This document shows, piece by piece, positions 6,035 to 49,142 of a DNA stretch of 58,643 bases. This stretch comes from Actinomycetes bacterium (GTDB taxonomy: Bacteria; Actinomycetota; Acidimicrobiia; Acidimicrobiales; SZUA-35). Location of the stretch: assembly GCA_024280015.1 (NCBI GenBank), contig JAJRQY010000042.1, positions 1-58,643 on the forward strand. Reading direction: 5' to 3'. Numbering within the stretch: position 1 is the first letter of the stretch; each line of letters begins with the position of its first letter. The position numbers and the translations under genes are program-made. Under the pieces are notes generated by a model, which was not told the origin of the DNA, searched no databases, and saw only the letters and a list, made by a program, of their open reading frames with translations.

Positions 6035-6092
6035 GTGGCTGCCTCCAACATAAGAAAACTTGTGCTCATGTGCGACTCTAGATAGGCCAAAC

Positions 6093-6148
6093 GGACTAGT
6101 CCATGGACGAAATGACATTTCTTGTGGCTAGTGACTAGACATACTGTC
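6093..6148. promoter_or_regulatory. Divergent control region with overlapping palindromes (candidate PucR-type operator)
   Basis: The 139-nt gap between the importer operon and the divergent regulator holds two overlapping perfect 10-bp palindromes, GGACTAGTCC (6093-6102) and GTCCATGGAC (6099-6108). A third dyad, GACA-TAC-TGTC, lies at 6138-6148. The gap must contain both promoters. The dyads are seen directly; binding by the adjacent PucR-type protein is inference. Confidence 0.5.
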
Positions 6149-6173
6149 CAGTGGGTGTGACTATCATTACATC

Positions 6174-32712: not shown

Positions 32713-33716
32713 TGGCTAGCGAAACTGACCGTAAAGACCTGCTTGAAATGTTCCGGTCCATGGTACGAATTCGGCTTTTCGAACAAGCCGCCTACGACAT
32801 GTATATGGACGGGGAACTCCCCGGATTCATGCACATATCCATCGGCCAAGAAGCAACATCGGTTGGTGCCTGCTCGGCCTTGGGAGAGGGTGACTATCTC
32901 ACCAGCACCCACCGGGGGCATGGCGACACCATCGCCCGCGGCTTGAGTATCGAGTCGGCCATGGCGGAGCTAATGGGCAAGGCCGACGGTGCGTGCAAGG
33001 CCAAGGGAGGCTCCATGCATGTCGCCGACTTCGGATTGGGAATCCTTGGAGCCAACGGGATTGTTGGTGCGGGTATGCCCATCGCCATCGGGTCCGCACT
33101 GTCCTCCAACTATCTCGATCGTAAGACGGTCACGCTCTGCTTCTTCGGCGACGGAGCGATGACGACTGGCCCGACACATGAGGCCATGAATATGGCGACC
33201 TTGTGGAACTTGCCGGTGGTATTCGTGCGCCAGAACAATCTCTACGCTGAATCGACGCCAGTTCGGGAGTATCAAGGGATTCCGGACATTCTGAAATGGG
33301 CAGAGTCCTACGGGATGCCAGCAACCCGTGTCGATGGCAACGACGTACAAGCTGTTCACGACACGGTACTGACGGCAGTGGAGCGAGCCCGCAGCGGTGG
33401 CGGACCGTCCTTTGTCGAGTCTGAAACCTACCGATGGTTTGGTCACAATATTGGTGACCCTGGCAAGGGTCGGCCTCCCGAAGAGGTGACGGCTTGGAAG
33501 GCTCGGGATCCCCTGGTGATTTGCCGCAGCGTGCTTCTTGACGATGGCGCAGACGAAGCTTCACTCAGCGCTATTGAGTCAGAAGAGCAAGAGAAATTGG
33601 CGAAGGCGATCGAGCTGGGCCGAGCAGCTGCCCTGCCGAAGTTAGAAGATGCACTGACCGATGTTTATGGCGACCAAACTCTTGCTGCTGCCGCCCTTGG
33701 AGAGGTTCGACGATGA
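32712..33716 (+). CDS. 2-oxoacid dehydrogenase E1 component, alpha subunit
   Basis: TPP-dependent decarboxylating subunit of an acetoin- or pyruvate-dehydrogenase-like complex, 334 aa. The TPP/Mg motif starts at GDG 146-148 (FFGDGAMTTGPTHEAMNMA) and ends with QNN at 174-176. Other family marks are STHRGHGDTIARG and KGGSMHVADF. The phosphorylation-loop-like end FGHNIGDPGKGR is typical. It overlaps both neighbours by 1 and 4 nt, and the E1 beta and E2 genes follow. AcoA and PdhA share this pattern, so the substrate (pyruvate, acetoin or a less common oxoacid) cannot be told from the chain. Confidence 0.92.
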   Translation: MASETDRKDLLEMFRSMVRIRLFEQAAYDMYMDGELPGFMHISIGQEATSVGACSALGEGDYLTSTHRGHGDTIARGLSIESAMAELMGKADGACKAKGGSMHVADFGLGILGANGIVGAGMPIAIGSALSSNYLDRKTVTLCFFGDGAMTTGPTHEAMNMATLWNLPVVFVRQNNLYAESTPVREYQGIPDILKWAESYGMPATRVDGNDVQAVHDTVLTAVERARSGGGPSFVESETYRWFGHNIGDPGKGRPPEEVTAWKARDPLVICRSVLLDDGADEASLSAIESEEQEKLAKAIELGRAAALPKLEDALTDVYGDQTLAAAALGEVRR

Positions 33717-34693
33717 CCGAAATCTTGTACCGAGAAGCCATCCAGCAAGCTCTACGTGAAGAGATGCTTCGTGATGACACCGTCTTTTTGATTGGTGAGG
33801 ACTTGCGAGATCCCTGGGGCGGGACCTATAAGGCAACGGCTGGACTCTCGCCAGACTTTGAAGACAAGCGGGTTTTGAACACCCCGATTGCTGAAGACAC
33901 CATCATTGGCGCTGCCCTTGGCGCCGCACTCTCCGGTACCCGTCCGGTTGCTGAACTCATGTACATCGACTTTGTCATGCGGGCCATGGATGCCGTAGTC
34001 AACCAGGTAGCCAAGGTTCGCTACATGTCCGGTGGACAGAGCGACGTTCCGCTGGTGATTCGGACTCAGGGTGGTGGAGGCCGCTCATCGGCGGCCCAGC
34101 ACGGCAATAGCCTTGAGGCCTGGTTGTGTCACGTACCGGGTTTGCTGATCGCCATGCCATCAACCCCAGCCGATGCGAAAGGCCTGCTAAAGACGGCCAT
34201 CCGGTTGAACGATCCGGTCATCTTCATCGAACACAAGTTGCTGTACGCCACCAAGGGCGAGGTACCAGACGATGAGTACACCATTCCCTTTGGTGTCGCT
34301 GACATCAAGCGTGAAGGTACCGACGTCACCATCGTTGCCGCATCGCGGGCATTACTCTTTTCTCTCGAAGCAGCCGAAGAGCTAGCCAGGGAAGGGATCA
34401 GTGCCGAGGTAATCGATCCACGAACCCTGGTTCCTCTTGATGAGGAAACCATCTTCGAGTCTGTCGATAAGACCAACCGCTTGGTCGTGGTTGCCGAAGG
34501 AGCCGAGCGTTGCGGTTGGACGGCTGAAATTGCCGCCAGGGTGCAGGAAGCTCGTTTCTATAGCCTCGATGCCCCGATCCAGCGCGTGGCGGCACTAAAT
34601 GTCCCACTCCCATTCCAACCGGACATGGAGCGCTACGTCTTGCCCAGTGTCAAGGACATCGTCGCCGCCGCTAAGCGAACTTTGGACGCCTGA
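33713..34693 (+). CDS. 2-oxoacid dehydrogenase E1 component, beta subunit
   Basis: Partner of the E1 alpha subunit, 326 aa, with the transketolase pyrimidine-binding domain (1-175) and the C-terminal domain (200-320). Diagnostic stretches are NTPIAEDTIIGAALGAALSG, IDFVMRAMDAVVNQVAK, GGGGRSSAAQHGNSLEAW and the C-terminal EVIDPRTLVPLDEETI. It starts at an ATG overlapping the E1 alpha stop (ATGA) and ends one nucleotide before the E2 start. Length is normal. Confidence 0.92.
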   Translation: MTEILYREAIQQALREEMLRDDTVFLIGEDLRDPWGGTYKATAGLSPDFEDKRVLNTPIAEDTIIGAALGAALSGTRPVAELMYIDFVMRAMDAVVNQVAKVRYMSGGQSDVPLVIRTQGGGGRSSAAQHGNSLEAWLCHVPGLLIAMPSTPADAKGLLKTAIRLNDPVIFIEHKLLYATKGEVPDDEYTIPFGVADIKREGTDVTIVAASRALLFSLEAAEELAREGISAEVIDPRTLVPLDEETIFESVDKTNRLVVVAEGAERCGWTAEIAARVQEARFYSLDAPIQRVAALNVPLPFQPDMERYVLPSVKDIVAAAKRTLDA

Positions 34694-34694
34694 G

Positions 34695-35993
34695 GTGCGT
34701 TATGAGTTGAAGATGCCCCGGCTTGGTCCTGATATGGATGAAGGCACTCTCATCGAGTGGAACATGTCCGTTGATGACGAGGTCCAAGAGGGCGCAGTTT
34801 TAGCCACCATCGAAAGCGACAAGAGCGAGGTTGAGCTCGAATCACGCTGGCATGCCATGGTGGCTGAGCTTGTGGTCGAACCCGGCACTGTTGTTCCTGT
34901 CGGCGGAGTAATTGCGGTGCTGTACAAGCCCGGTACGGACCCCGGACCGTTGGGGGCTATCGACTCCGCCAACCCGGCTACATCTGCTCCTTCGGCAGGG
35001 TCTAGTTCGGCACAGTCCAGCGCAGAAACAGCACCCCAGTCTCCTCCTGGTGGTGCCCCAGCCACAAGCAAGGCCATTGGCACACGCAGGCCGCTTTCAC
35101 CCATGGTGAGACGGCTACTCAAGGAGAGCGGCCTTTCGGCGGATGAGGTCACCGGAACCGGACCGGGAGGCAAGATTCAACGCTCAGATGTCGAGGCGGT
35201 GATTGCCGCTCAGTCTGATGCTCTAAAGGACTCCGGCACCGTGGGCTTCGATGCAACGGCGGCAGACCAATCATCGACAGACCCGTCACCGGCCGCTTCC
35301 ACTGGACCTGGCAGCCAATCAGGCGATCCTCACCGTTTCGTCCTCACCAAGGTAGAAAAGACTGGGGGCCGCCGCATGGTCGAGTCCCGATCAACGATCC
35401 CCGATTTTGCCATCTCCCGACGCATTGATATGAGCGCCGCACTGGCGACAAAGAAAGCGCTGGCCGATCGTGGTACGCCGGTCTCGTTGAACGACATGAT
35501 CCTGTTCGCCACCACACGTGCTCTGGTCGAATACCCCAGAATCAACGGAGTGTTTGAGGGCGAAGCCGTCGTCGCTCAGGCGGCAGTCGATCTGGCTATG
35601 GCCATAGCTACTCCTGATGGTCTCATCGCCGCGGTTCTTCCCCAGTGCCAACAACTAAGCCTGGTCGAAATAGGATCAAAGAGCCGGGAGCTGGTGGAAC
35701 GGGTCCGGGTTGCCAAGCTGCGACCGGAAGACCTTGGCCAAGGATCTTTCACTGTCTCAAACCTTGGGATGTACGGGGTCGACCGGTTCCAGCCAATCAT
35801 CAATCCTCCCCATGTCGCCATCATGGGAGTGGGACGGATCACCGATCAGCTTGTCCTGAACTCACTTGGCGTGCCCATGGCGGTTCCGATGATCGAGCTC
35901 ACGGTGGTTGGTGATCATCGAGCTGTCGACGGAGTGGCACTGGCACTATTCTTGGCTTCGCTGGAGAGTTTCCTTAGTGGCTCCTTGGCGTGA
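34695..35993 (+). CDS. 2-oxoacid dehydrogenase E2 component (dihydrolipoamide acyltransferase)
   Basis: Core acyltransferase of the complex, 432 aa from the GTG at 34695. That start is one nucleotide after the E1 beta stop, so it depends on coupled translation; the frame opens earlier only within E1 beta. Domains: a lipoyl domain (1-80) with the modified Lys43 in ESDKSEVE; an Ala/Ser/Pro linker; the peripheral E1/E3-binding domain (about 128-165, RPLSPMVRRLLKESGL...GPGGKIQRSDV); a second long linker; and the catalytic domain (about 220-432) with the conserved DHRAVDG near the end. No E3 (dihydrolipoamide dehydrogenase) gene is present, so a shared one must serve. Confidence 0.92.
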   Translation: MRYELKMPRLGPDMDEGTLIEWNMSVDDEVQEGAVLATIESDKSEVELESRWHAMVAELVVEPGTVVPVGGVIAVLYKPGTDPGPLGAIDSANPATSAPSAGSSSAQSSAETAPQSPPGGAPATSKAIGTRRPLSPMVRRLLKESGLSADEVTGTGPGGKIQRSDVEAVIAAQSDALKDSGTVGFDATAADQSSTDPSPAASTGPGSQSGDPHRFVLTKVEKTGGRRMVESRSTIPDFAISRRIDMSAALATKKALADRGTPVSLNDMILFATTRALVEYPRINGVFEGEAVVAQAAVDLAMAIATPDGLIAAVLPQCQQLSLVEIGSKSRELVERVRVAKLRPEDLGQGSFTVSNLGMYGVDRFQPIINPPHVAIMGVGRITDQLVLNSLGVPMAVPMIELTVVGDHRAVDGVALALFLASLESFLSGSLA

Positions 35994-35997
35994 GGTT

Positions 35998-36054
35998 CGG
36001 GTCGCGTGTGGCGGTTCAACTAGAGTCCGTCGAGCACCGCACGGGTGCGACCCG
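35998..36054 (+). promoter_or_regulatory. Inverted repeat between E2 and the GntR gene
   Basis: CGGGTCGC (35998-36005) and GCGACCCG (36047-36054) can pair over a 41-nt gap that itself holds GCACC...GGGTGC. This fits a structured leader or an attenuator just ahead of the regulator's ribosome site. There is no T-run. Confidence 0.35.
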
Positions 36055-36072
36055 GAAGTTGAAGGTGCATTC

Positions 36073-36837
36073 ATGACAGGCGATAAGTTTGAGAAAGTCT
36101 CCATTGCCGCTGTTCCCCGCAGTCCGACCTTGTCGGCTCGGGTCACCGAGGCAGTCGAACAGTTGATTGCTGACAGCGAGCTTGTTCCTGGTGATCGCAT
36201 GCCGTCGGAGAGGGTTCTGGCCGAGAAGTTCGATGTGAGTCGAACGGTGATTCGCGAAGCTGTGCGGGCCCTTGTCGCCAAGGGTCTGCTGGACGTGAGG
36301 CGGGGGAGCGGAACGGTGGTGTGTGGTCCCCAGACCGACTTCGTCGCTCGTTCGATGAGCCTTCTCCTTCAAGCTGGTGGATCATCAAATAGCTACGACC
36401 AGGTTCACGAGGTCCGAACGATGCTGGAATTGCACATTTCCGCCATCGCCGCCGAACGCCGAACCGATCTTGACCTCATGAATCTCGACCGTGCCCTGGA
36501 TCAGATGGTTCGCGATCACGATCGCGAATCATTTGCGGCTGCTGATCTGGCTTTCCACTCCGCCTTGGCTGAGGCGACCCACAATCCCCTGCTCCTTGTT
36601 TTGCACAACTCGATTGCTGACGTGATGGTGGCGGTTCGTAAGCAGGCATTCGAGACTCTGGGGGCAGTGCCTAACGCACAGAACCATCATCGTCGAATCT
36701 TCGAAGCCGTTCGCGATAGTGATTCCCAACGCGCGAGCAAGGCAATGGAGTCACATCTCCTCGATTCGCGTCGCTTGATGGACGGCGAACCAATTCGTGT
36801 TGAGCTGGAAGATCTTGATGAGACCCCTATCCCCTGA
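36073..36837 (+). CDS. GntR family transcriptional regulator, FadR subfamily
   Basis: DNA-binding regulator, 254 aa. The N-terminal winged helix-turn-helix (about 14-78) reads GDRMPSERVLAEKFDVSRTV...VRRGSGTVV. The C-terminal FCD ligand domain (about 100-240) has the expected acidic/His metal-site pattern (VRTMLELHI, DLAFHSALAEA, NHHRRIFEAV). Start ATG 36073 is chosen by the Shine-Dalgarno GAAGGTG and because the N-terminus fits the family; a longer frame begins inside the E2 gene. It is in the same direction as the dehydrogenase operon and 80 nt after it. Members regulating hexuronate and other sugar-acid genes bind TGGTATACCA-like sites, and TGGTATGAY motifs occur before several genes here. 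Confidence 0.9.
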   Translation: MTGDKFEKVSIAAVPRSPTLSARVTEAVEQLIADSELVPGDRMPSERVLAEKFDVSRTVIREAVRALVAKGLLDVRRGSGTVVCGPQTDFVARSMSLLLQAGGSSNSYDQVHEVRTMLELHISAIAAERRTDLDLMNLDRALDQMVRDHDRESFAAADLAFHSALAEATHNPLLLVLHNSIADVMVAVRKQAFETLGAVPNAQNHHRRIFEAVRDSDSQRASKAMESHLLDSRRLMDGEPIRVELEDLDETPIP

Positions 36838-37135
36838 GGTCGAAAGCGACGACACCGTCCAGTCCGCCATCCAGGCAGGCGACGACCTGTTCGGCGTGGG
36901 CCAGGTGGGCGGGATGCACCAGATAGGTGTCACGAGCCGGCTCGTCGGGGAAGTCAACAATGAGGCCGTGAGCAAAGCCCTTGTCGAGGCTTTCGTTACT
37001 CAGGTTGGGTCCGACGAGCACATTCTCCATCCCGTCGATGGTCTTCGACAGGACGACAAAGCCAGCCAGCAGGTCATCGATCCGCTCCTCGCTGGTGTCC
37101 GGCTTGAATCGGAAGAGGGCACAGTGTCGGATCAT
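36827..37135 (-). CDS. Dabb (stress-responsive A/B barrel) family protein
   Basis: Small dimeric ferredoxin-like barrel protein, 102 aa. Signature stretches are MIRHCALFRFKPDTSEERID, the central NLSNESLDKGFAHGLIVDF and the C-terminal YLVHPAHLAHAEQVV, with the conserved HPxH. Dabb proteins include small cyclases and dehydratases and many of unknown role; some lie in sugar-catabolic clusters. The ATG at 37135 has GGAG six nucleotides upstream. Its 3' end overlaps the GntR gene by 11 bp in convergent orientation, and it is divergent from the SDR gene. Confidence 0.85.
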   Translation of the reverse strand: MIRHCALFRFKPDTSEERIDDLLAGFVVLSKTIDGMENVLVGPNLSNESLDKGFAHGLIVDFPDEPARDTYLVHPAHLAHAEQVVACLDGGLDGVVAFDLRG

Positions 37136-37187
37136 ATTTTCTCCAGCGTCGTTCAATCATGGCTTTGAGGCCAAGGGTAGGTTAGAT

Positions 37188-37949
37188 ATGAGTGGTCCAC
37201 AGCGCCTTGTTGGTAAGCGTGCGTTGATAACGGGCGGGGCGTCGGGGATTGGATTGGCTACGGCGATCCGATTCAAGGCTGAGGGCGCCCGAGTGGCACT
37301 CTTGGATCGGGATGAAGATGCCCTCGACCGGGCAAAACAAGCGCTTAGCGATGCCGTTTTGCTTCCGGTGGACGTCACCGACGAAACCCAGGTTGAAGAA
37401 GCCTTCGATTCGGTGATGGAGCAATGGGGTGGGCTTGACGTCCTGGTGCCTAATGCTGCGGTCCAGCTCATTGGTCGTGATGCCGCCGTCCACGAACTGG
37501 ATCGTGAGGTTTGGGATCTGACAATTGGGGTGAATCTCACCGGTATGTATCTCACCTGCAAATATGGCGTTCGCTGCCTCTTGGCTTCAGGCGGCGGCAG
37601 CGTGATTTGTACGGCCTCGCCAACCTCGCAATTTGGTATCGGTGCAGGGTTTGATGCGTACAGCGCCAGTAAGGGAGGGGTTCTTGCCTTGGCTCGGGTG
37701 ATGGCCAATGACTATGCCGCGGACGATATTCGGGTGAACGCTGTTGTTCCCGGGGTCACCGCGACTCCGCTGATTGAGGGCTTGATCGAAGACCCAGAGG
37801 CCATCAACTCTCTGGTCGACGTTATTCCAATGGGTCGTGTTGGAACTGCCGAAGACGTGACTGGGGTGATGGTCTATCTGGCTTCGGATGACTCTTCTTA
37901 TGCAACCGGCGGCGTATTCACTGTTGATGGTGGCCTAACCGCGGTCTGA
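37188..37949 (+). CDS. Short-chain dehydrogenase/reductase (classical SDR)
   Basis: NAD(P)-dependent oxidoreductase, 253 aa. The cofactor motif TGGASGIGLA is near residue 14-23, Asp in LLDRDEDAL suggests NAD preference, and NAAVQ replaces the common NNAG. The catalytic Ser is in CTASPTSQF, with Tyr and Lys in YSASK. The C-terminus DGGLTAV is typical. The ATG at 37188 is chosen because the family N-terminus starts there. The substrate may be a sugar or sugar acid given its place between the GntR regulator and the SMP-30 lactonase; oxidation of a sugar to its lactone followed by hydrolysis is a common pairing. Confidence 0.9.
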   Translation: MSGPQRLVGKRALITGGASGIGLATAIRFKAEGARVALLDRDEDALDRAKQALSDAVLLPVDVTDETQVEEAFDSVMEQWGGLDVLVPNAAVQLIGRDAAVHELDREVWDLTIGVNLTGMYLTCKYGVRCLLASGGGSVICTASPTSQFGIGAGFDAYSASKGGVLALARVMANDYAADDIRVNAVVPGVTATPLIEGLIEDPEAINSLVDVIPMGRVGTAEDVTGVMVYLASDDSSYATGGVFTVDGGLTAV

Positions 37950-38028: not shown

Positions 38029-38061
38029 GTATTGGGGCGTACTTCGAAGGGACGTAGCTAC

Positions 38062-38940
38062 ATGCTGGAACCGCTGATGACCGGGTTGGTCGAGCCGGAG
38101 GGTCCGCTGGCCTTGGAAGACGGACGATGGCTGGTGGTGGAAATGGATCCGTCCCGAGGCTGTATCAGCCTTATCGATCCCTCGGATAGTTCGCTCACTG
38201 TCGTCAAGAAGACGGGCCGACCCAATGGTCTAGCCATTGGCGCCAACGGTGATATCTATGTGCCAGAGTCACTCTCTCCCGCACTGCTTCGGATCACGTT
38301 GGATGGAGAATGCGAAACGATCTTGACTCAGAATGAGCATGGGGAAGACTTCCTCTTCCCCAACGATCTCTGTTTCGGTCCCGATGGCGCCTTGTATATG
38401 ACCGACTCGGGGATCATGCATTCCGACATGGTCATCAATGGTTCTGCCCGCGAGGACTATGACACCGCCCCCTACGACGGTCGTGTCTATCGAATCGACG
38501 TGCATACGGGCAGCATCGAGACGATCGATCGTGGCCTGAAGTTCCTCAACGGGATCTCCATTGGTCTTGACAACGCGCTCTACACCAACGACACCATTAC
38601 CGGTGATGTGTATCGCTATGACCTTGATAGCGGAAGCGTCGGTGAACGAGAAGTCTTTGGCAATGTGATCGACTGGGATTTACCCAAGGACTTCCGTGGA
38701 CCTGACGGCATGGCCCATGGTGCTGACGGCAAGCTGTACGTGACGGTGTTCAACCAGCACGAGATCGTGGTCCTGGGTGCTGATGGCGTTCGGGACTCTG
38801 TTATTCGTACTACTGGCAACAATCCAACCAACGTTGCCTTCGGGCTCGACGACAATCGAATGTATGTAACGGAGACTGAACTCGGCCAGCTCGAGGTCAT
38901 CGAGACCGACACCACGGGTGCTCCGCTCTATCGAGGCTGA
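38062..38940 (+). CDS. SMP-30/gluconolactonase/LRE family protein
   Basis: Six-bladed beta-propeller hydrolase, 292 aa, of the family that opens sugar lactones using one divalent metal. Family marks are the N-terminal EPEGPLALEDGRWLVVE (metal Glu), RPNGLAIGANGDIYV, FLFPNDLCFGPDGALYMTDSG (Asn and Asp ligands), GLKFLNGISIG and RGPDGMAHGADGKLYV (Asp). The ATG at 38062 has GAAGGGA about ten nucleotides upstream; a frame opening ten codons earlier would overlap the promoter. No signal peptide is seen. It follows the SDR by about 110 nt with its own promoter, and probably hydrolyses the lactone made by a sugar dehydrogenase such as that SDR. Confidence 0.9.
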   Translation: MLEPLMTGLVEPEGPLALEDGRWLVVEMDPSRGCISLIDPSDSSLTVVKKTGRPNGLAIGANGDIYVPESLSPALLRITLDGECETILTQNEHGEDFLFPNDLCFGPDGALYMTDSGIMHSDMVINGSAREDYDTAPYDGRVYRIDVHTGSIETIDRGLKFLNGISIGLDNALYTNDTITGDVYRYDLDSGSVGEREVFGNVIDWDLPKDFRGPDGMAHGADGKLYVTVFNQHEIVVLGADGVRDSVIRTTGNNPTNVAFGLDDNRMYVTETELGQLEVIETDTTGAPLYRG

Positions 38941-38958: not shown

Positions 38959-40047
38959 TCACGGACCGAAACTGGCGGTCAGCACCTGTCCGTTGTGGAG
39001 TCCTAGCAGTAATCGGGTACTGGCTTCCCCAGCGCCGGGGCCGTCTGTGAGGCCAAGGTTGAGCACACACGAAATGCCAGCCGAGACATCTTGGTCTAGC
39101 TCAGCCTTGTTCCAGGTTCGTCCCGAGTCCTCGGAAAGGTGCAAGGCATCATCGACTAAGGCCAGCAGCCGATACTTGTTTGGCGTTGGGTCAGTACTTG
39201 GATCGGGAACCGGCTCATTAGTTGGCCTACGTGTTGTTGCTGGAAGCACGAGCAGAGTATTCACAGCGCCAGAGGGTTGGGGGCTACCAAGCTTTGCCCA
39301 GCTCGCACCGCCATCGGTGGACTGGAACATGCCGTCGGACTCAGTGCCAGCAAAGAGGCATTGATCGGTGGCAAAGTCTGGCGACCCCGCGAGACAGACC
39401 GTGGCTGACAGATCAGAAGGAAAGGCAGTCTCGCGCCATGCCCGACCACCATTTGTGCTGCGAAAGACTCCGGTCTCGGTGGCCGCGAACAAGGTGTTGT
39501 CCGTACGGCGGCTGCCCGGGCCTGGCGGGGTGACAGCAATGTCCAAGACAGCAAGATCAAGTAGACCGAAGTTCCATGCGGCCCACGTTCGGCCGCGGTC
39601 CTCGGTCCGGAAGACTCCATCTTCCAATGTGCCAGCAAAGGCAAGCCCGTCGGCTGCGAACCCGGGCGAGAAAGCCAACGAGCTGAAGACTGGAGGAGGG
39701 GCCGGTGCATCAAACACCGACCAGGTTTGGCCACCATCTAGGGATCGTAGGACTCCACCAATTGCTCCAGCAAGTAGACATCGCTCAGTTTCTGATTGTG
39801 TTCTTGCTTGAGTGCCGGGTTCTGCGTGTTGAGACTGGTCAAAGGATCCGGCTGGCGATGCGGCGATGGCGAGGGTAGTGATTGCAGACTGGGGCTCTAA
39901 CGACTCATAGCAGTCGTTCCAACTCAGGCCACCATCTGAGGAATGACGCAAACCCGCAGTGGAGGCAGCGAACCAGTGCTCGGTACCGTCGGCCGTCTGG
40001 GTCAGTGCAATGGAGTGCACAAGCTGACTTGTTGCTGGCTCGGTCAT
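38959..40047 (-). CDS. Asp-box (BNR-type) beta-propeller protein
   Basis: The 362-aa product has six Asp-box motifs (S-x-D-x-G-x-x-W type): SSDGGLSW, SLDGGQTW, TEDRGRTW, STNGGRAW, STDGGASW and SEDSGRTW. They are spaced roughly one per blade, as in sialidase, YCF48 and VPS10-type propellers. There is no signal peptide and no catalytic Arg triad that I can see, so it is probably a cytosolic binding or scaffold propeller, not a sialidase. It is the last gene of the ABC transporter operon, three nucleotides after the chaperonin-like gene. It converges on the lactonase gene with an 18-nt gap. Function unknown. Confidence 0.8.
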   Translation of the reverse strand: MTEPATSQLVHSIALTQTADGTEHWFAASTAGLRHSSDGGLSWNDCYESLEPQSAITTLAIAASPAGSFDQSQHAEPGTQARTQSETERCLLAGAIGGVLRSLDGGQTWSVFDAPAPPPVFSSLAFSPGFAADGLAFAGTLEDGVFRTEDRGRTWAAWNFGLLDLAVLDIAVTPPGPGSRRTDNTLFAATETGVFRSTNGGRAWRETAFPSDLSATVCLAGSPDFATDQCLFAGTESDGMFQSTDGGASWAKLGSPQPSGAVNTLLVLPATTRRPTNEPVPDPSTDPTPNKYRLLALVDDALHLSEDSGRTWNKAELDQDVSAGISCVLNLGLTDGPGAGEASTRLLLGLHNGQVLTASFGP

Positions 40048-40050
40048 TGC

Positions 40051-41703
40051 CTAGGAGCCCTTTCCAGTCGACTGTTCAGCCGGTCCGGCCGGAGAACGCA
40101 GGACCAGAGCCTCAACACTGAGGGCGAGGGCGGCACTACTGACCGCCGCAAGAACGGCCGTTTGCAGGACGGAGACAGAATCCAGAATTCCAGCAGCCGC
40201 CATGTCGACAGGTTGACCAGTCCGTGCATCGATTCCTGAGCCAGCACGGGTCAGATCCAGGCGGGCAAGCGACTCGGCGGCATCGAGACCAGAGTTGGAG
40301 ACGATGGCGCGAAATGGCTCGCCGAGGGCCTGTTCCAGTATCTGATAGGCGGCTGCGGCGTCACCGTGGTCGGGCTTGTCCGCTGTCGCCTGTCCGGCCC
40401 GAGCTAGGCAATCACGAGACTCGAGTAGGGACACGCCGCCACCGGGAACAACTCCGTTGAGCATGGCGCTCCGGGTCGCCTGGATGGTTCGCTTTGCTCT
40501 CGCCAGTCGCTCCTCCAACTCGATTTCGGTTGGGCCACCAACCCAGAGAGTGGCAGAACCGCCAAGGAGCTTGCCGATTCGAGTGCGGTACCGGTCCTGG
40601 TCCAGGTGACTTGTCGATGCTTGCAGCGAGGTCCGAAGTTGGCCAAGGTGTTTTCGCAGCTGCCTGGGATCTCCGGCTCCGCCTACTATTCCGAAGCTCT
40701 TCTGGTTGGCCCAGACCCTCCTGGCATGTCCGAAGTCTTCCATGTTCATGGCGCGCAATGAATCACCAGCATCAGCAACAAGGGGTCGACCCCCAGTCAG
40801 CACAGCAAGGTCGGAGAGGGACTCGGCCTGTTCAACCTTGCCCCACCCGGGAGTTCTGACAACAATGCAACGAAGGGACTCGGGATCGACGTTGGCTTTC
40901 AAGAAGGCCAGAGCGCTGTCGGATATGGAACCAACCACCAGGACAAGAGTCTGGATCTTGGTCCGTACCGCGGCCTCAACTACAGGCAGAAGCTGAAGCG
41001 GCTCAGCGATTGTTAGATCACTGACAAGAATGCTGGCATCGGTGAATTCGGTCTTGAGCTGGTCGACGCCTTCGAGCATCCAACGAGCGACAACACCGCG
41101 GTCCCAATACATGCCCTCGACGTACTCTCGCTGCAGGCCAAGGTGACGAGCTGGCCGAACTTCGACTCGTCCGTGTTCGCCGACAATATCCAAGACTTCG
41201 CCGATCATGTCAGCCATTTCCTGGTCATGGCAGAGGGTGTTGGCCAGATGGGCCAAATCCTTCTCGCCGAGAATGGGGCTCGCCTTATTCTCCAAGTCGG
41301 CCGCAACAAGTTCGGCCCCATGGCGTAGATGCGCCCGCAGCCCAACACTGTCACCGCCAGCGGCCAAGTACCGGACTCCCTCGCTGAGTATTCGTTCGAA
41401 GACGACAGCGGCCGTTGCCGTGCCGTCCCCAGCCTTGTCGCTCACACTGGCTGCAAGTTCACGAACCAGCATGGCCCCGATGTCTTCATACGGATTCGCT
41501 AGTTGGGTGATTCGTTGGGCGACAAGTGAGCCACCATCGACTAGCTCGGGGATCTCACCACTCAGTCTTCGATCGATGGCAACCACACGAGCATGAGGTC
41601 CCAAGGTCGGTCGAATGGCTCGGACGACTTGGGCTGCTCCCCGCTGGATACTCCTGCTGGCGGCTGGCTGAAACGCAATCTTGGGAGACTGGGAGGGCTT
41701 CAT
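40051..41703 (-). CDS. Divergent GroEL-like (Cpn60 family) chaperonin paralogue
   Basis: Cytosolic Cpn60 homologue, 550 aa, about GroEL length but strongly diverged. The equatorial nucleotide region is recognisable: TLGPHARVV (canonical TLGPKGRNV), VDGGSLVA holding the equivalent of GroEL Asp52, and DKAGDGTATA with the Asp87 equivalent. At the hydrolysis position Asp398, GroEL has RVEDALHATR; this protein reads RAKRTIQATR, so the Asp is replaced by Arg, followed by an intact GVVPGGG. The adenine-site Asp495 equivalent (GILD) is kept, and there is no GGM tail. It may bind ATP but probably hydrolyses it poorly. Its ATG overlaps the permease stop (41700-41703), so it is coupled to the sugar ABC operon. 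Confidence 0.85.
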   Translation of the reverse strand: MKPSQSPKIAFQPAASRSIQRGAAQVVRAIRPTLGPHARVVAIDRRLSGEIPELVDGGSLVAQRITQLANPYEDIGAMLVRELAASVSDKAGDGTATAAVVFERILSEGVRYLAAGGDSVGLRAHLRHGAELVAADLENKASPILGEKDLAHLANTLCHDQEMADMIGEVLDIVGEHGRVEVRPARHLGLQREYVEGMYWDRGVVARWMLEGVDQLKTEFTDASILVSDLTIAEPLQLLPVVEAAVRTKIQTLVLVVGSISDSALAFLKANVDPESLRCIVVRTPGWGKVEQAESLSDLAVLTGGRPLVADAGDSLRAMNMEDFGHARRVWANQKSFGIVGGAGDPRQLRKHLGQLRTSLQASTSHLDQDRYRTRIGKLLGGSATLWVGGPTEIELEERLARAKRTIQATRSAMLNGVVPGGGVSLLESRDCLARAGQATADKPDHGDAAAAYQILEQALGEPFRAIVSNSGLDAAESLARLDLTRAGSGIDARTGQPVDMAAAGILDSVSVLQTAVLAAVSSAALALSVEALVLRSPAGPAEQSTGKGS

Positions 41704-42827
41704 CCCTTGACGGCGCCGGCCAAGACCCCTTGGACGAACAGTTTCCGGAAGGCGAGATAGACGGCAACGAGGGGGATAACTGAGGACAAGATTGCGGCGT
41801 AAATCACCTGGAAGTTGGTGGAGAATTGGCCGACCGTTGTCTGGATGTACGGCAAGAGGGTGCTGCTATCAGGATCGAGGTAAACGAAGGGCTCGAGGAA
41901 CTGGTTGTAGATCAGAGGCAGTTGTACCACAATCAGCCCAACGGTTGGCACCTTGAGGAGCGGGATCAGGATGTGGCGGACGTAACCCAGCCTGCTGGCT
42001 CCATCCAGCATGGCGGAGTCTTCCAAGTCCTTTGGTAGTCCGGTAATGAAGGCGGTGAAGACCATGACTGAGAAGGCTGTCCCCTTGATATTGATGGCAA
42101 CGATCGAGCCGAGTTGGACTGCAGCCCGAGTGAAGCCTGGGTCGGCGAAGCCGGGCACCAGTTTGGAGAACCATTGGATCAGGATGAACTGGGGCAGGAG
42201 AACAAGCATGGCTGGAATGACCATCTGGAGGAGATAGATCTTGTAGACAATCCGTTGGTCACGGCGATGCAGGCCTGCCAGTCCGTAGCCAGTCATGATG
42301 GACAAGAGGGTCAGTCCGATCAGGCTGACCAAGGTAATGAACAGGGTGCGTAGGAGCGCTCCGACGAATTGGCTATCAGTCAGAATTGTTCGCCAACCGT
42401 TGTAGGTATAGAAGCCCGAGAAATAGTCGCTGATGTCCTCTTCGGGAATGTCATAGGTCTCCGACAGGTCTCGCAGGCTTACTCGTGCCCCGAGGAAGTC
42501 ATCAACGGGAATCCCTAAGTCTCGTTTGAGATCAGTGAGGTCGAGGTTGTAGAACACGGCAAGGTTGCCGACCTGTGCATCGAGGTTGACGTCGTCGGCC
42601 TCGGGAATCCAGAAGTGAAGATCGGTTGATTCCTTAGTGGGAACCGTCGAGCGAATGGCCAGGGCGTAGAAGGGGATCAGGGTCAGGATGGCGTAGATGG
42701 ACAAGAGCCCAACAGCCAGGGAACCGTAGAGTCGTCGCCGTTTCTTGGCGTTCTTGAATTGCTTGGGCTTGGGAGCCCGGATCATTTGTTGGTCTGAGTC
42801 AGCCGGGATCGGATTGAGGACAGCCAC
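41700..42827 (-). CDS. Carbohydrate ABC transporter permease (MalG-type)
   Basis: Inner-membrane permease of the sugar importer, 375 aa. The first helix (about 32-55) is followed by an unusually long extracytoplasmic segment of ~100 mostly acidic residues (from VPTKESTDLHFW to YTYNGWRTIL) before the remaining five helices; MalG-type proteins are usually ~280 aa. The EAA coupling loop is EDSAMLDGASRLGYVRHILIP. It starts at a GTG sharing a G with the upstream stop (TAGTG). No ATPase gene is in the operon, so a shared MsmK/MsmX-type ATPase elsewhere would be needed. It is coupled to the chaperonin-like gene downstream. Confidence 0.9.
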   Translation of the reverse strand: MAVLNPIPADSDQQMIRAPKPKQFKNAKKRRRLYGSLAVGLLSIYAILTLIPFYALAIRSTVPTKESTDLHFWIPEADDVNLDAQVGNLAVFYNLDLTDLKRDLGIPVDDFLGARVSLRDLSETYDIPEEDISDYFSGFYTYNGWRTILTDSQFVGALLRTLFITLVSLIGLTLLSIMTGYGLAGLHRRDQRIVYKIYLLQMVIPAMLVLLPQFILIQWFSKLVPGFADPGFTRAAVQLGSIVAINIKGTAFSVMVFTAFITGLPKDLEDSAMLDGASRLGYVRHILIPLLKVPTVGLIVVQLPLIYNQFLEPFVYLDPDSSTLLPYIQTTVGQFSTNFQVIYAAILSSVIPLVAVYLAFRKLFVQGVLAGAVKG

Positions 42828-43801
42828 TAGTACTGAACCTTGCGTTGCAGCCGGAGTAGCACAAGCCCGACAGCCATCAAGGGGACTGATGTAACAACGG
42901 CCAGGGTCATGCCCAGGGCAAGGCGGTCAAGCTGGAACCCATAGGTGAAGAACAAGATGCTTAGGAACTTGGCCTCGGGGTTGACATAGAGGGCACCCAT
43001 CGCCACTAGCTCATCAAAGACCGAGAACGCACCAATGAGGGCCATGGTGGTGGCAATGATGAACGATGGCCACATTTGGGGGAAATAGATCCTGGTAAGT
43101 CGCTGCCAATAGTTAGCTCCGTCGACAATGGAGGCTTCGATGGTGTCGGTTGGGATGGCCAGGAGACCGACCAGAAAGATCGACATATTGAAGCCGGCGT
43201 AGCGCCAGCCGACCATGAGGGGCAGAACGAATCGGGAAGTGCCGGACGAATAGAGATCAATGGGTTTGGAGATCAGGCCGAGGTCCATGAGGAGGAGGTT
43301 CACGTTCCCCGTTTCCTGGGAGAAAAGCATGACGGCTAAGTATCCAACAGCAAGCCCTGACAACATCAGTGGCATATAGATGACAGTGAATAGCGCCTTA
43401 CGAACCCCGAACTCGAACATCAACAGAGCAAGTGAAAGCCCAAACACGTACACCAGCAGGTAGTTCAGCCCCACAAACACGAGCGTCCGCTTCAGCGCTG
43501 GAAAATAGTCAGCCCGAACGCTGGCGTTGTCGAAGATGGCGGTGAAGTTGTCGAATCCAACCCCACTTACCTGGGGGTCATTGAATCCGGACATGTCCGT
43601 AAACAGGATGGGGAAGGCAACGATGAACGGCACCAAGGTGAGGAGGACGAAGAGGAAGAGCTGGGGTGAGATGAACATCCAGTCTTCGATGATTCGACGG
43701 CGGGCAAGACCACTGGCCTTGCCCGCCGTCGAATCGTCCGTTTCAGCCTTCGTTGTGCCCATGGATCGTGCGTTCCTGGTACTGGTTGATCCGCTGACCA
43801 C
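42827..43801 (-). CDS. Carbohydrate ABC transporter permease (MalF-type)
   Basis: Inner-membrane permease, 324 aa, with six predicted helices after a ~35-residue cytoplasmic N-terminus. The EAA coupling loop is IEASIVDGANYWQRLTRIYFP. The GTG at 43801 is chosen because AGGAG lies seven nucleotides upstream; an ATG 13 codons later has no ribosome site. It forms the channel with the MalG-type partner and takes substrate from the lipoprotein encoded 28 nt upstream. A strong palindrome lies in that gap. Confidence 0.92.
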   Translation of the reverse strand: MVSGSTSTRNARSMGTTKAETDDSTAGKASGLARRRIIEDWMFISPQLFLFVLLTLVPFIVAFPILFTDMSGFNDPQVSGVGFDNFTAIFDNASVRADYFPALKRTLVFVGLNYLLVYVFGLSLALLMFEFGVRKALFTVIYMPLMLSGLAVGYLAVMLFSQETGNVNLLLMDLGLISKPIDLYSSGTSRFVLPLMVGWRYAGFNMSIFLVGLLAIPTDTIEASIVDGANYWQRLTRIYFPQMWPSFIIATTMALIGAFSVFDELVAMGALYVNPEAKFLSILFFTYGFQLDRLALGMTLAVVTSVPLMAVGLVLLRLQRKVQY

Positions 43802-43815
43802 TCTGAACTCCTAGC

Positions 43816-43831
43816 AGGCGCAATTGCGCCT
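43816..43831. promoter_or_regulatory. Perfect 16-bp palindrome between binding-protein and permease genes
   Basis: AGGCGCAATTGCGCCT overlaps the stop codon of the binding protein and precedes the permease ribosome site. In the mRNA it makes a hairpin. Such hairpins after the first gene of ABC operons are known to stabilise the upstream message and so raise binding protein over permease; that role here is inference. Confidence 0.6.
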
Positions 43832-45308
43832 AAACCGTGTAGCTAGCTTCCCAGTTCTTCTGGGCGATGTCTAGAGCATCCTGGACGGTGATTGAGCCGG
43901 CCAGAAGGTCAGCCATGACGGTATTGTTGCCGTTGGCTTCCCAGTCGAATACGCCAATTGAACCCTTCTCTCGGAAGGGTGCAGCGAGGACTTCGCCGGT
44001 GAGATCTTCGGAGAAGGAGGTGTCGGCCCACTTGCCGCCGTCGGTACCAACTTCACTCAGGACTTGCTGGAACTGAGGTCCGGCAATATCGGGGAGATCA
44101 TCCAGCTGGTAGGTGACGGCTCGACCTTCGGCCGATGCCCGAAGTGGAATGGCCTCGGGGCTGAACATCCAGTTGAAGGCAACCTGGGTTTGGGCCCAGT
44201 GTGGGGTGTCCGGATTGCCGGTACGGATAAAGTATCCAGAGTCAACGGCTGGAGGAGCCGCAGCCTGGAGCCATGGGTTGCCCTCGGCCGGTGGAGTGAC
44301 TGGCATGCCTTGCTGGTTTCCATTGACCGCAAAGTCGGCACCAGCAGCCAGCGCCTTGTCCCAGACCCATGGGCCATGTAGGAGCAAGGCGGAGTCGCCT
44401 GCGATATAGCTGGCTTCCATGTCGCCTTCCCACTGGCGGGTGGTGAGGCCTTCGGGCATCCAGCCCTTCTCGTTGGCTTCGACGAAGAACTCATAGAAGT
44501 GACGGTAGGGGGAGTCAGCATCGTTGAACTTGGCGTCGCCGAGCCAGCATGCAGCCGTGCGATCTCGGGTTCCGTCTTCGAAGGCCATTGGGATGATCTC
44601 GGGGAGCTGAACTCCGAAGACCCAGTTGTGCCAGGCCAGGTTCCAGAAGGTTTTGCCGTCTTCTCCAGCGGCCCAAGCGGTGCCTTCGTCCAGCCAAGCC
44701 TTCATGTCGTCCCAGGTCTTGACATCGTTCTGGGGATCAAGGCCGGCTTGGTCCATGAGCTCCTGGTTCCATTGCCAGGTGAAGACGAATCCCTGGAAGG
44801 GGGTGAGGGTTCGGGGGCCGGACTCTCCGAAGAGGCCAGACCAGGTGTTCTTAACGTCCCAGGTCCAACGGTCCCACCATTCAAAGTCAATGGTGCTGAG
44901 ATCGACGAAGGTCTCGAAGTTGTCGGCACCGGCAGCAATCTGCAGTTCCTGGCTGTGCTCAATAGCTGGAAGGTAGCCACCAGCGACCTTGGCCTCATGC
45001 GCCGCTGCGGTGTCCTCATTGATGGAGAAGAGGTTGACCTTGATGCCCTCGTGCTTGGACTCGAACAGGTTCCAGATCTCGCGATAGGGGCCCTCGTATT
45101 CAGCGACTGGGCTCATGATGTCAAGCACGACATCTTCGCCTGCGGGGGCAGCAGTGCCGGGGGCGGCCGTCGTGGTGACTCCGTCAGCGGCGGTAGTTGT
45201 CGTGCCGCCTTCGCTGCTTGAGCCAGTACAGGCGGCGACTACAAGGCCTCCACCGGATAGTGCGGCCATTCGCACGAATACTCGTCGACTTACCTCATGT
45301 GCGGCCAT
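43830..45308 (-). CDS. Sugar ABC transporter substrate-binding lipoprotein with Tat-type signal
   Basis: Extracytoplasmic receptor, solute-binding family 1, 492 aa. The signal has twin arginines (SRRVFV, R8-R9), a weakly hydrophobic stretch and a lipobox VAAC with Cys27, so it is likely exported folded by Tat and then lipidated. A Thr/Ala-rich linker follows (about 33-60). Family features include LDIMSPVAEYEGPYREIW, the substrate-cleft tryptophans in FEWWDRWTWD and FVFTWQWNQEL, and the GDSALLLHGPWVWDKAL segment. The ATG at 45308 is chosen by AGGAAGG upstream and by the signal sequence; the frame opens 31 codons earlier without support. It heads the operon with two permeases, the chaperonin-like gene and the propeller. 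The sugar is unknown. Confidence 0.92.
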   Translation of the reverse strand: MAAHEVSRRVFVRMAALSGGGLVVAACTGSSSEGGTTTTAADGVTTTAAPGTAAPAGEDVVLDIMSPVAEYEGPYREIWNLFESKHEGIKVNLFSINEDTAAAHEAKVAGGYLPAIEHSQELQIAAGADNFETFVDLSTIDFEWWDRWTWDVKNTWSGLFGESGPRTLTPFQGFVFTWQWNQELMDQAGLDPQNDVKTWDDMKAWLDEGTAWAAGEDGKTFWNLAWHNWVFGVQLPEIIPMAFEDGTRDRTAACWLGDAKFNDADSPYRHFYEFFVEANEKGWMPEGLTTRQWEGDMEASYIAGDSALLLHGPWVWDKALAAGADFAVNGNQQGMPVTPPAEGNPWLQAAAPPAVDSGYFIRTGNPDTPHWAQTQVAFNWMFSPEAIPLRASAEGRAVTYQLDDLPDIAGPQFQQVLSEVGTDGGKWADTSFSEDLTGEVLAAPFREKGSIGVFDWEANGNNTVMADLLAGSITVQDALDIAQKNWEASYTV

Positions 45309-45407
45309 GAGCACACACCTTCCTGTTAGTGATCTGATTTTTACGGTTCGTGAACTACTCTGTATTGGCGATCGGTTCGTTGAGCGCCCGAAGTGAAACA
45401 TGCCACA

Positions 45408-46501: not shown

Positions 46502-47251
46502 CTAGCCGGCCCCAAGAAAGGCTCGTCGGACATTGTCGTTGTTGAGAAGCTCGCTGGCCTTGCCGCTATAGGTTTGGCGTCCGACCTCGACGACATAGCC
46601 ACGATGGCTGGCCGCCAAACCCTGCCGGGCGTTCTGTTCAATCATCAAGACAGTCAAGCCAATCTCACGATTGAGTCGGGTAATGGCCTCAAAGATCTGC
46701 TTGGTAATGATGGGGGCCAGGCCGGCACTGGGCTCATCCATGAGAACCAGGCGAGGCTCCCACATCAATGATCGACCAATCTCCAGCATGCGTTGCTCGC
46801 CGCCCGACATGGTGCCTGCATCTTGCTTGGCTCGTTCGGCCAGGCGCGGGAAGAGGTCATAGACATAGTCGATGCGTTCCTTGACCCGAACCTTGTCCTT
46901 GGTGAGGTACATGCCAAGCTCCAGATTCTCATGAACAGTCATCTGAGGAAAAACACTGCGTAGCTGGGGAACAATGGTGATGCCAGCGGTTTGCAGTGCT
47001 TGCTGAGGAGGAATATTGGTGATCTCACGGCCCCCACAAATAACACGGCCCTTCCGCACCGGGATGATCCCGTAGATCGCCTTGAAGACCGTCGACTTGC
47101 CTGCACCATTAGGGCCAATAACACACACGATTTCGCCCTCATAGACTTCAAGAGTGACACCCTTGAGCACATCTTGGCCGACGTAGTAGCCAGCGTAGAT
47201 GTCCTGCACCTCGAGCAGTGGTCGTTCAGAACCGTTGGAATGTGGTCGCAT
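46502..47251 (-). CDS. livF: Branched-chain amino acid-type ABC importer, ATP-binding protein LivF
   Basis: Cytoplasmic ATPase, 249 aa. Walker A GPNGAGKS is at 46-53, the Q-loop follows at IVPQLRS, the signature MSGGE is at 148-152 and Walker B LVLMDEPS ends near 175. The LivF group is recognised by the short chain and the C-terminal EVGRQTYSGKASELLNNDNV. It shares a base with the livG stop (TGATG) and with LivG forms the ATPase pair of the HAAT-type importer. Liv-type systems also carry amides, urea or aromatic acids, so the substrate is open. Confidence 0.93.
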   Translation of the reverse strand: MRPHSNGSERPLLEVQDIYAGYYVGQDVLKGVTLEVYEGEIVCVIGPNGAGKSTVFKAIYGIIPVRKGRVICGGREITNIPPQQALQTAGITIVPQLRSVFPQMTVHENLELGMYLTKDKVRVKERIDYVYDLFPRLAERAKQDAGTMSGGEQRMLEIGRSLMWEPRLVLMDEPSAGLAPIITKQIFEAITRLNREIGLTVLMIEQNARQGLAASHRGYVVEVGRQTYSGKASELLNNDNVRRAFLGAG

Positions 47252-48060
47252 CAGATGACTCCTTCGCTCTTGGCTTCGACTGTCGTGTCGTTTCCCTCCG
47301 GGGCATCTGTCTCACCGTCATCACCGAAATAGGCTTCGATGACATCCTTGTTTTCCATGATTTCTTGGGGACTTCCCTCCGCCAGCAGGGCGCCGTAGTT
47401 CAAAACCACTACCCGGTCACAGAGGTCCTTGACGAAGCGCACGTCGTGTTCGACGAGTAAGAAGGCAACGCCTTGTTCCTGATTGAGAATCTGGAGGCGG
47501 ACCTTGATTTCTTCGACCAGGGCTGGATTCACGCCTGAGGTTGCTTCGTCCAGCAAGACCAGTTTGGGGTCACTCATGAGCGACATCCCAATCTCCAGCA
47601 GTCGACGCTGGCCGCCAGACAGGGTTCCTGCTTGCTCATTTCGCAGCCGAGAGAGAAGGAGGAAGTCGATGAGCTGGTCGGCCTTGTCGCGGGTGCTGCT
47701 GTCTGGCTTCTGGAACAACTTGGCGGTGCTGACCTTGCCCCACTGAAGGCTGAGTTCCATGTTCTCCAACACAGTCAGCTCTCGATAGACGCGAATGACT
47801 TGGAAGGTTCGAGACAGTCCGAGGTGGGCTACCAAGTGTGGTCGTTTCTTGGTGATGTCGACACCGTCGAATTCGATCTTGCCCTGGTCAATCTCTTGTA
47901 CTCGGCTCAGGCAATCGAACAGGGTTGTCTTGCCGCTTCCGTTGGGGCCGATAAGGCCAACCATCTCTCCCTTGTTGACATGGATGCTCACATCGTCGAC
48001 AGCCACCAGGCCACCGAAACGCTTCGAGATTCCGTTTGCTACTAACAGGTGGCCGCTCAT
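47251..48060 (-). CDS. livG: Branched-chain amino acid-type ABC importer, ATP-binding protein LivG
   Basis: Cytoplasmic ATPase, 269 aa. Walker A GPNGSGKT is at 38-45, the signature is LSGGQRRLLEIG, Walker B LVLLDEATSGVNP and the switch His is in LLVEHDVRF. The LivG group is recognised by the N-terminal ISKRFGGLVAVDDVS and the C-terminal LAEGSPQEIMENKDVIEAYFG. The last ~18 residues are an acidic tail. Its ATG overlaps the livM stop by four nucleotides. Confidence 0.93.
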   Translation of the reverse strand: MSGHLLVANGISKRFGGLVAVDDVSIHVNKGEMVGLIGPNGSGKTTLFDCLSRVQEIDQGKIEFDGVDITKKRPHLVAHLGLSRTFQVIRVYRELTVLENMELSLQWGKVSTAKLFQKPDSSTRDKADQLIDFLLLSRLRNEQAGTLSGGQRRLLEIGMSLMSDPKLVLLDEATSGVNPALVEEIKVRLQILNQEQGVAFLLVEHDVRFVKDLCDRVVVLNYGALLAEGSPQEIMENKDVIEAYFGDDGETDAPEGNDTTVEAKSEGVI

Positions 48061-49142
48061 GACGTCACCTCTGTCTTGTGGTCATTCGTCGAGTCGGCAG
48101 AATCGTTCATCTGGACGAGATCTTCGCTGGACCCGTAGGCATCAACAGACTCGCCGCCGAACCATCGTGACCACAAGGTCACAATCGAGGTGGAGCGTGG
48201 ATCGAACAATCCAACGATTCCCTTCGGGACATAGAGCACGATCATGATGAGTAGCAGGCCTTGGATGATCAGGTGATAGTCCAAGAAGTTGGCCCATAAG
48301 ACTTCCCGCAACCAGTACAGGGCGGCTGAGCCGACGACAGGTCCGGCAACGGTGCCAATGCCGCCGAGCATGGTTCCCATCACCGCATCGATCGTTCGAG
48401 ATTCAACAAAAGCAATATCAGGGTCAACGAAGGTGTTCTGAAAGGCCCACAGACCACCGAACAACCCTGTCGAACCTCCAGCAAAGCTGAAGACTGTCAC
48501 CTTGAGACGGGTGGCATTGATGCCCCGCATCTCGGCGCCAACTTCGTCTTCACGGACGGCAATCAGGGCTGATCCGAAGCGGGTTCGACGTAACCACCAG
48601 GTGAAGCAGATCAAGGCTACGACCAGGCCGAGTTCGATGTAGTAGAACAACTGCCGATTCAGGTATGGAGGCAGGGTGAGACCAACGCCGCCGCCGGTGA
48701 GGGGCGAAGCGACTCGGACGATTTCTCGAACGGCAACGAACGTACCCAGCATGGCAATAGAGAAGTATGGCCCTTTGAGCCGCATCGTCGCCTTGCCAAT
48801 AACCGCAGCCATGCCCCCGGCAATGAGTGCGCCAAGAACGATGGCGGGAAAGGCAGGCCAGCCAATGCCAAGCCCCGAAGTCTGTTTGGTCATCAAGATG
48901 GCGGTGACATAAGCCCCAATTCCAAACCAGACGGCGTGACCAAAGTCGACATAGCCGGTGAAGCCCCCGGTCAAGTTCCAGTTGATCGAGATAGCAATGG
49001 TGGTGAGCATCAAGGTAAGGGAGAAAAGGGTGGAGTTTGTTGTTGACTCCCGCAGAGGGAGCACAACAAGCCACGCCAGCACGGCGAGCGAAAGCATGAC
49101 TGCTACCCGGCGAAAGGCTTTGGATTCGACCAGGCGACGCAT
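48057..49142 (-). CDS. livM: Branched-chain amino acid-type ABC importer, permease LivM
   Basis: Inner-membrane permease, 361 aa, with about eight to ten helices. LivM marks are NLTGGFTGYVDFGHAVWFGIGAY cut as NLTGG...GYVDFGHAVW, the coupling region FGSALIAVREDEVGAEMRGI and GGIGTVAGPVVGSAALYWLR. A ~40-residue acidic cytoplasmic tail follows the last helix. It starts at an ATG sharing a base with the livH stop and overlaps livG by four nucleotides. Confidence 0.93.
   Translation of the reverse strand: MRRLVESKAFRRVAVMLSLAVLAWLVVLPLRESTTNSTLFSLTLMLTTIAISINWNLTGGFTGYVDFGHAVWFGIGAYVTAILMTKQTSGLGIGWPAFPAIVLGALIAGGMAAVIGKATMRLKGPYFSIAMLGTFVAVREIVRVASPLTGGGVGLTLPPYLNRQLFYYIELGLVVALICFTWWLRRTRFGSALIAVREDEVGAEMRGINATRLKVTVFSFAGGSTGLFGGLWAFQNTFVDPDIAFVESRTIDAVMGTMLGGIGTVAGPVVGSAALYWLREVLWANFLDYHLIIQGLLLIMIVLYVPKGIVGLFDPRSTSIVTLWSRWFGGESVDAYGSSEDLVQMNDSADSTNDHKTEVTS

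Follow-up and report, generated by a model that had tools for sequence, protein, structure and literature searches.

Group I chaperonins are the standard example of protein folding driven by ATP. In GroEL, T90 helps to hold a potassium ion and D52 also supports hydrolysis. The D398A variant of GroEL binds ATP normally and retains 2–3% of the wild-type ATPase activity, and it can still enclose and fold protein (PMC3326522, PMC3813556). Divergent type I paralogs that stand apart from the co-chaperonin gene are described in a review for the chlamydial GroEL2 and GroEL3 (PMC5904260). Among eukaryotic systems, CCT folds seven-bladed WD40 propellers (PMC9117761), and the BBS proteins BBS6, BBS10 and BBS12, chaperonin-like paralogs with altered ATP-hydrolysis motifs, assist assembly of the propeller-containing BBSome (PMC5534436). 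The latter are Group II, CCT8-derived proteins that, in the same paper, are said not to form chaperonin oligomers, and they therefore lend no support for a ring in the case described below. The likeness to CCT and BBS is one of role, not of descent.

Here we describe a GroEL-like gene from an actinobacterial contig whose whole analyzed stretch, 58,643 nucleotides long, is called the window. The gene belongs to a large and apparently undescribed branch of GroEL-type chaperonins. No earlier description of this clade was found in the open-access full-text literature among the matches listed, in line with the initial annotation, which knew of none, and the words Chloroflexi, transporter and propeller do not occur in the accessible text of the review of atypical type I chaperonins (PMC5904260).

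The window chaperonin and its operon

The gene order on the minus strand is binding protein, permease 1, permease 2, chaperonin, propeller. The features are as follows.

38032–38940, plus strand: SMP-30/gluconolactonase-like protein, convergent neighbor (PF08450; synteny)
38959–40047, minus strand: BNR/Ycf48-like beta-propeller, 362 aa (ORF; Sortilin, BNR and PSII_BNR above Pfam cut-offs)
40051–41703, minus strand: GroEL-like chaperonin, designated CPNL, 550 aa (ORF, PF00118, alignment, AF2 model)
41700–42827, minus strand: CUT1-type ABC permease 2 (MalG-like), 375 aa (PF00528; EAA-type loop EDSAMLDGA)
42827–43801, minus strand: CUT1-type ABC permease 1 (GlcT/MalF-like), 324 aa (PF00528; EASIVDGA loop by eye)
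43830–45401, minus strand: lipoprotein, probably the substrate-binding protein (twin-arginine motif SRRVFVR and a lipobox seen by eye)

The chaperonin ORF (41703 to 40051) contains no internal stops. Its start overlaps the stop of permease 2 by four bases (41700–41703, ATGA) and three bases separate its end from the propeller start at 40047, both as initially annotated. Two BPD_transp_1 permeases (PF00528 twice) and a binding protein make up a CUT1-type importer, and the chaperonin is indeed genetically integrated with a sugar-type ABC importer, as had been claimed. Permease 1 matched GlcT/MalF/UgpA-like models and permease 2 MalG/GlcU/UgpE-like models, in each case with scores below the cut-offs of those models. 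The EASIVDGA loop of permease 1 was read by eye; the motif pattern used for EAA loops gave no match to it. The binding protein is assigned by position and lipobox only, the twin-arginine motif and lipobox following an internal start (MAAHEVSRR, by eye). It gave no Pfam or NCBIfam match at E 0.01; in 8 related loci a relative is encoded three genes ahead of the chaperonin, and among 39 genomes of the window's family it was found in its own only.

No ATPase gene occurs among the ORFs of the importer operon. The nearest ATPase genes (46502–48060) are LivF/LivG-like and, judged by best match, part of a branched-chain-type set. CUT1 systems draw on shared MsiK-like ATPases, a UgpC-type ATPase is encoded elsewhere in the window's genome (457.7 bits versus a cut-off of 432), and the importer ATPase is probably supplied in trans. 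The chaperonin as a stand-in for the missing ABC ATPase was rejected: permease 2 keeps its EAA-type loop, the genome has the UgpC-type ATPase, and sister importers exist without a chaperonin. Two further gene sets were seen in the window. A branched-chain-amino-acid or urea-type ABC set at 46502–50035 (the LivF/LivG-like ATPases and two permeases) is unlinked to the finding. The region next to the operon at 33713–37949 holds dehydrogenase genes that resemble E1/E2 types in sequence, together with a GntR regulator and an SDR gene. Relatives of E1b, GntR and the SMP-30/gluconolactonase-like gene lie near the same importer in loci L040, L042 and L043.

We considered whether a Chloroflexota contig had contaminated the bin, and rejected this. 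The window's tetranucleotide correlation with 12 stretches of its genome (14 were gathered and the 2 shortest left out) is 0.991, and that of the stretches among themselves 0.818–0.989; the importer-chaperonin operon alone gave 0.936. GC content is 0.582 for the window versus 0.577–0.596 for the genome stretches. A further ground is that the window groups with three contigs from MAGs whose titles read Acidimicrobiia or Actinomycetota. One scan of viral contigs with the window chaperonin, of a kind that detects close relatives only, returned no relative.

The chaperonin matches PF00118 (Cpn60/TCP-1) over residues 28–534 (E 2.9e-39; 135.5 bits versus a gathering threshold of 34.3), and group I chaperonins of known structure match it nearly end to end (best E 8e-83). 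It passes the PRK12849 subfamily model (383.4 versus 352), scores 355.9 against the GroEL equivalog TIGR02348, under the cut-off of 582.1, and weakly matches the chlamydial GroEL2 and GroEL3 models NF038370 and NF038369 (84.5 and 115.5 bits versus cut-offs of 600). It resembles GroEL in its full-length fold, in the ATP-binding glycines (G32-P33, GDGT and G414-G416 are kept, with GDGTAT replacing GDGTTT), in D87 (Asp93) and in D495. It differs in alignment to E. coli GroEL at the columns of D398 (Arg405), T90 (Ala96) and D52 (Gly57), in its C-terminus, which is SPAGPAEQSTGKGS and has no Gly-Met tail, and in the lack of a groES, as no GroES-like ORF was found among the 318 ORFs of at least 60 aa in the window.

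The initial annotation had thus correctly noted the loss of the hydrolysis aspartate, the retention of an Asp87-type residue and the missing GGM tail, and had erred in listing the Asp52-type residue as kept. Asp56 sits one column before Gly57, in that of E. coli K51. In relatives, columns 51–52 read as ungapped series such as ND, DD, DN and DS, so D52 has probably changed in the window chaperonin too, where the Asp52 role may have shifted functionally by one residue. Note that the loop around residues 44–60 is poorly predicted in the AF2 model. A shifted Asp398, raised as a check on the initial annotation, can be set aside, as all of 20 aligned sequences have Arg in this column and the model aligns along the length of GroEL.

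That model (pLDDT 83.8, pTM 0.70) is best matched by GroES-bound 4v4o_C (Z 39.2, rmsd 3.6 over 513), with TM about 0.80 to GroES-bound chaperonins versus about 0.58 to apo forms; identity to chaperonins of known structure is ∼30% in the structure comparison. The GroES-bound-like state was set aside as evidence for an ATP-locked ring, there being no control GroEL model.

Clade membership and residue conservation

Relatives were gathered by similarity to a profile of the window chaperonin, and all counts below therefore describe a sample, not a census. A scan of genome contigs gave 21 loci at 41–55% identity; the titles of 18 name Chloroflexota, those of the other 3 Acidimicrobiia or Actinomycetota. 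Among 397 genomes of the window's order, 6 reach E 1e-84 when the window chaperonin is the query: the window itself and five at 286–287 bits, all of which carry D398 and were counted as ordinary GroELs. In its phylum, 1 of 396 genomes, the window's own, passes 1e-138 in a profile scan, a limit at which weaker clade members are missed. A profile scan of the class of an Anaerolineales MAG gave 44 of 346 genomes at ≥500 bits among the matches listed, and nine further genomes below 500 bits also lack D398, for at least 53 of 346; this sample may favor genomes already gathered. The scan also gave many matches at ∼419–446 bits. In 301 genomes of that MAG's phylum, 15 further loci were found at 460–530 bits, 12 with D398, two with Glu and one with Arg. 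The clade is made up mostly of Chloroflexota, plus four Actinobacteriota. Some genomes (G424, G436, G726 and G733) carry two to four clade paralogs, partly beside different permeases.

In a first tree of 108 rows, a branch with SH-aLRT 100 sets 74 clade sequences apart, and the group forms one well-supported clade separate from ordinary GroEL. The window falls with three other actinobacterial rows in a group that is nested within Chloroflexota rows, a position suggestive of transfer from Chloroflexota. A second tree has 110 rows; the exclusion list for it named 16 rows (near-duplicate and truncated ones, plus the long L140), one of which was not in the alignment. Both are quick trees without bootstrap, and some basal branches are drawn open.

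Residues were counted in 89 of the 91 aligned clade rows, two truncated rows (L057 and L159) being omitted. The counts also leave out L058, whose N-terminal part is disrupted, and L177 and L178, duplicates of L045 and L057; L057, L058 and L159 have Arg at 398. Column 398 reads R 59, E 12, D 12, Y 3, A 2 and H 1. D398 is thus absent from 77 of 89 clade sequences and present in all 34 ordinary GroELs compared; the 12 clade sequences that keep it are basal, against the reading that no member has D398. N479D was dropped as part of the lost active site, Asp being found there also in 14 of 34 ordinary GroELs.

In the 77 sequences that lack D398, G32, G414, G416 and D495 are kept in all, P33 in 76 and D87 in 75. 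The T90 column is A in 66, V in 8 and T in 3, and the D52 column D in 47, N in 18, S in 7, K in 4 and G in 1; because D52 is still Asp in 47 of 77, hydrolysis may be slow rather than dead. The mean share of Gly plus Met in the last 20 residues is 0.05, versus 0.38 in GroELs. At eight apical positions that we take to be GroES and substrate contacts, bulky hydrophobics average 5.6 of 8, versus 8.0 in GroEL; the apical sites seem weakened, not gone, and may still bind ordinary clients or GroES.

The loss of a catalytic residue would be expected of a decaying, functionless groEL duplicate. This reading is highly improbable: the ORFs are intact, the Arg and glycine motifs are invariant in the 20 aligned sequences, synteny is kept, and dN/dS is 0.04–0.20 in 8 of 8 chosen close pairs, a mark of purifying selection. 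Together, the kept ATP motifs and the dN/dS values point to a working ATP-binding protein with altered turnover.

A second alternative is that clade subunits mix into housekeeping GroEL rings, where hydrolysis-poor subunits would tune the cycle time for particular clients. The window's genome encodes a single PF00118 protein besides the chaperonin, and this is an ordinary GroEL. Of 21 clade-bearing genomes, 16 also have a full-length GroEL of the ordinary type (E at most 1.9e-71); the remaining five, all MAGs, show clade members or fragments only. Positions presumed to be ring contacts, among them E255 and V464, were compared with GroEL. R452 is kept in 64 of 77, in keeping with mixing, whereas E255 is Ser in 63 of 77 and V464 most often Glu (30 of 77), and the window chaperonin is only 31% identical to its own genome's GroEL. 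We regard mixing as quite unlikely.

The second tree needs only one change of the D398 state. Two pairs with Glu, and a group in which Glu, Ala and Arg are mixed, branch off outside the main Arg group; inside that group, Glu, Tyr, Ala and His turn up repeatedly at 398. The 12 basal loci with D398 comprise five near a GroES gene (L193 at 4987–6618, L194, L195, L196 and L198; 0.3–1.3 kb from the chaperonin), three with a downstream propeller of ∼660–670 aa and four with neither. The divergent relatives that keep D398 near GroES are likely the ancestral form of the clade. The two Glu398 loci among the 15 have propellers of ∼700 aa. Within what a quick tree can resolve of the basal branches, linkage to the propeller seems to predate the loss of D398.

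Genomic partners: propeller, GroES and importers

Neighboring genes were taken from greedy heuristic ORF choices rather than from annotation. Excluding the window, there are 91 loci, 89 of which have more than 400 bp downstream; in 63 of these 89 a propeller gene lies directly downstream on the same strand, often overlapping. The proportion is 60 of 77 among readable loci without D398 (a set of loci, distinct from the 77 sequences counted above) versus 3 of 12 among loci with D398. The propeller is not next door in the other 17 of 77. A separate clustering found the propeller in 56 loci, co-directional in 56 of 56 and at offset +1 in all 30 offsets listed. The initial annotation had raised an ATP-binding cage or scaffold for the binding protein, but the binding protein is an unlikely special client because the downstream propeller is the commonest partner.

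The AF2 model of the window propeller (pLDDT 84.5, pTM 0.85) has seven blades by DSSP reading. Its Foldseek matches are GH74 and Ycf48, the latter (5oj5_A) at E 4.5e-10, TM 0.58/0.66 and ∼17% identity; a second structure search gave GH74, RACK1 and a designed seven-bladed propeller, the last two at Z about 26. Such fold matches are shared by many propellers. The protein is like Ycf48 in its seven blades and in a PSII_BNR score above the Pfam cut-off, and unlike it in an NCBIfam score of 28.4 against a cut-off of 326. A W-x-x-G-L motif was dropped as a propeller signature, occurring in only 38 of 58 propellers. Directly downstream of the chaperonin in L151–L156, L185, L186, L191, L192 and L197, double-length propellers (∼630–700 aa, up to ten Asp-box matches) replace the ∼310-aa form. 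In three propeller-less loci the next gene is phytanoyl-CoA-dioxygenase-like by eye (L142, 10515–11414; L143, 7891–8745; L176, 8081–8923).

No GroES-like ORF was found in 79 stretches covering 76 distinct chaperonin loci, versus 20 of 21 ordinary GroEL loci with one (flanks ≤1.5 kb). These counts bear on a third alternative, a slow conventional GroEL that would borrow the cell's GroES and fold stress clients, the operon position only setting expression. GroEL D398A still encapsulates and folds (PMC3326522), the AF2 model fits GroES-bound GroEL best (TM about 0.8, without a control GroEL model) and 5 of 12 basal relatives lie near GroES. The absence of a GroES-like ORF from the 76 loci and from the window argues against borrowing, as do Y203 and V264, which are mostly changed, and the idea is as doubtful to us as subunit mixing.

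Of the 87 loci whose upstream sequence is readable, 24 have a CUT1 permease directly upstream of the chaperonin, versus 14 of 507 control genes taken from these stretches (Fisher p 9e-13, uncorrected for relatedness). All 24 are among 75 loci without D398. The upstream permeases form six clusters at 40% identity, and on the tree the permease state changes seven times. The flanks on both sides are readable in 77 tree rows: 40 of them show the propeller only, 14 both, 8 the permease only and 15 neither; neither gene is a universal partner of the clade. Because there are six permease clusters, the chaperonin is not tied to one transporter, contrary to the first proposal, which also fits poorly with the 40 rows with a propeller and no permease. 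A search of 327 genomes located the window-type permease at 14 places in 13 of them; the chaperonin follows it at 9 of these, is missing at 4, and 1 is cut by a contig end, which speaks against an obligate tie. Other neighbors of clade chaperonins include alpha-L-fucosidase, aldehyde ferredoxin oxidoreductase, SMC, GH2, sulfatase or histidine kinases.

The recurrent linkage to several permease types invites a fourth alternative, an ATP/ADP-sensing complex in which the chaperonin would be an ATP switch that gates or localizes CUT1 importers through the propeller. The kept ATP motifs with altered catalytic positions would suit a sensor, and the propeller has no signal peptide visible by eye. Against this, 40 of 77 rows have a propeller without a permease directly upstream, and importers of the same family exist without a chaperonin. 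On balance a sensing complex is unlikely.

Proposed function and implications

The function of the chaperonin is read here from its sequence and gene neighborhood. Our leading proposal, held tentatively and at a little under even confidence, is a slow-cycling or ATP-bound paralog forming a GroEL-like, possibly single, ring that serves as holdase or scaffold for its cognate propeller and has been repeatedly recruited to importers. The paralog keeps the ATP-binding motifs and has lost the normal hydrolysis residues (D398 to R and, in the window, also D52 and T90), the Gly-Met tail and the link to a GroES gene. The chaperonin would most likely stay ATP-bound for long periods, with a slow ATP cycle, and hold or assemble the seven-bladed propeller as client or partner. 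In several lineages, the window's among them, the gene or the pair has been built into CUT1 importer operons and would so be made in step with permeases, and the chaperonin may act at the transporter.

A bolder version is a GroES-free, ATP-locked ring of Chloroflexota origin in which the propeller stands in for GroES, either as a lid of matching symmetry or as permanent cargo, and which was repeatedly docked onto ABC importers. The tree order (GroES with D398, propeller with D398, propeller without D398, importer operons) fits such a hand-over from GroES to propeller, and we nonetheless rate this version as unlikely.

A clade with its hydrolysis residue replaced, and with purifying selection in every pair measured, would mean that the GroEL fold has been reused where a stalled ATP cycle is tolerated or needed. 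Because intermediates survive in Chloroflexota, this change can be put to the test. The frequent pairing with a propeller hints at a bacterial counterpart of eukaryotic chaperonins and the propellers they serve, and the link to importers would add a new layer to nutrient uptake.
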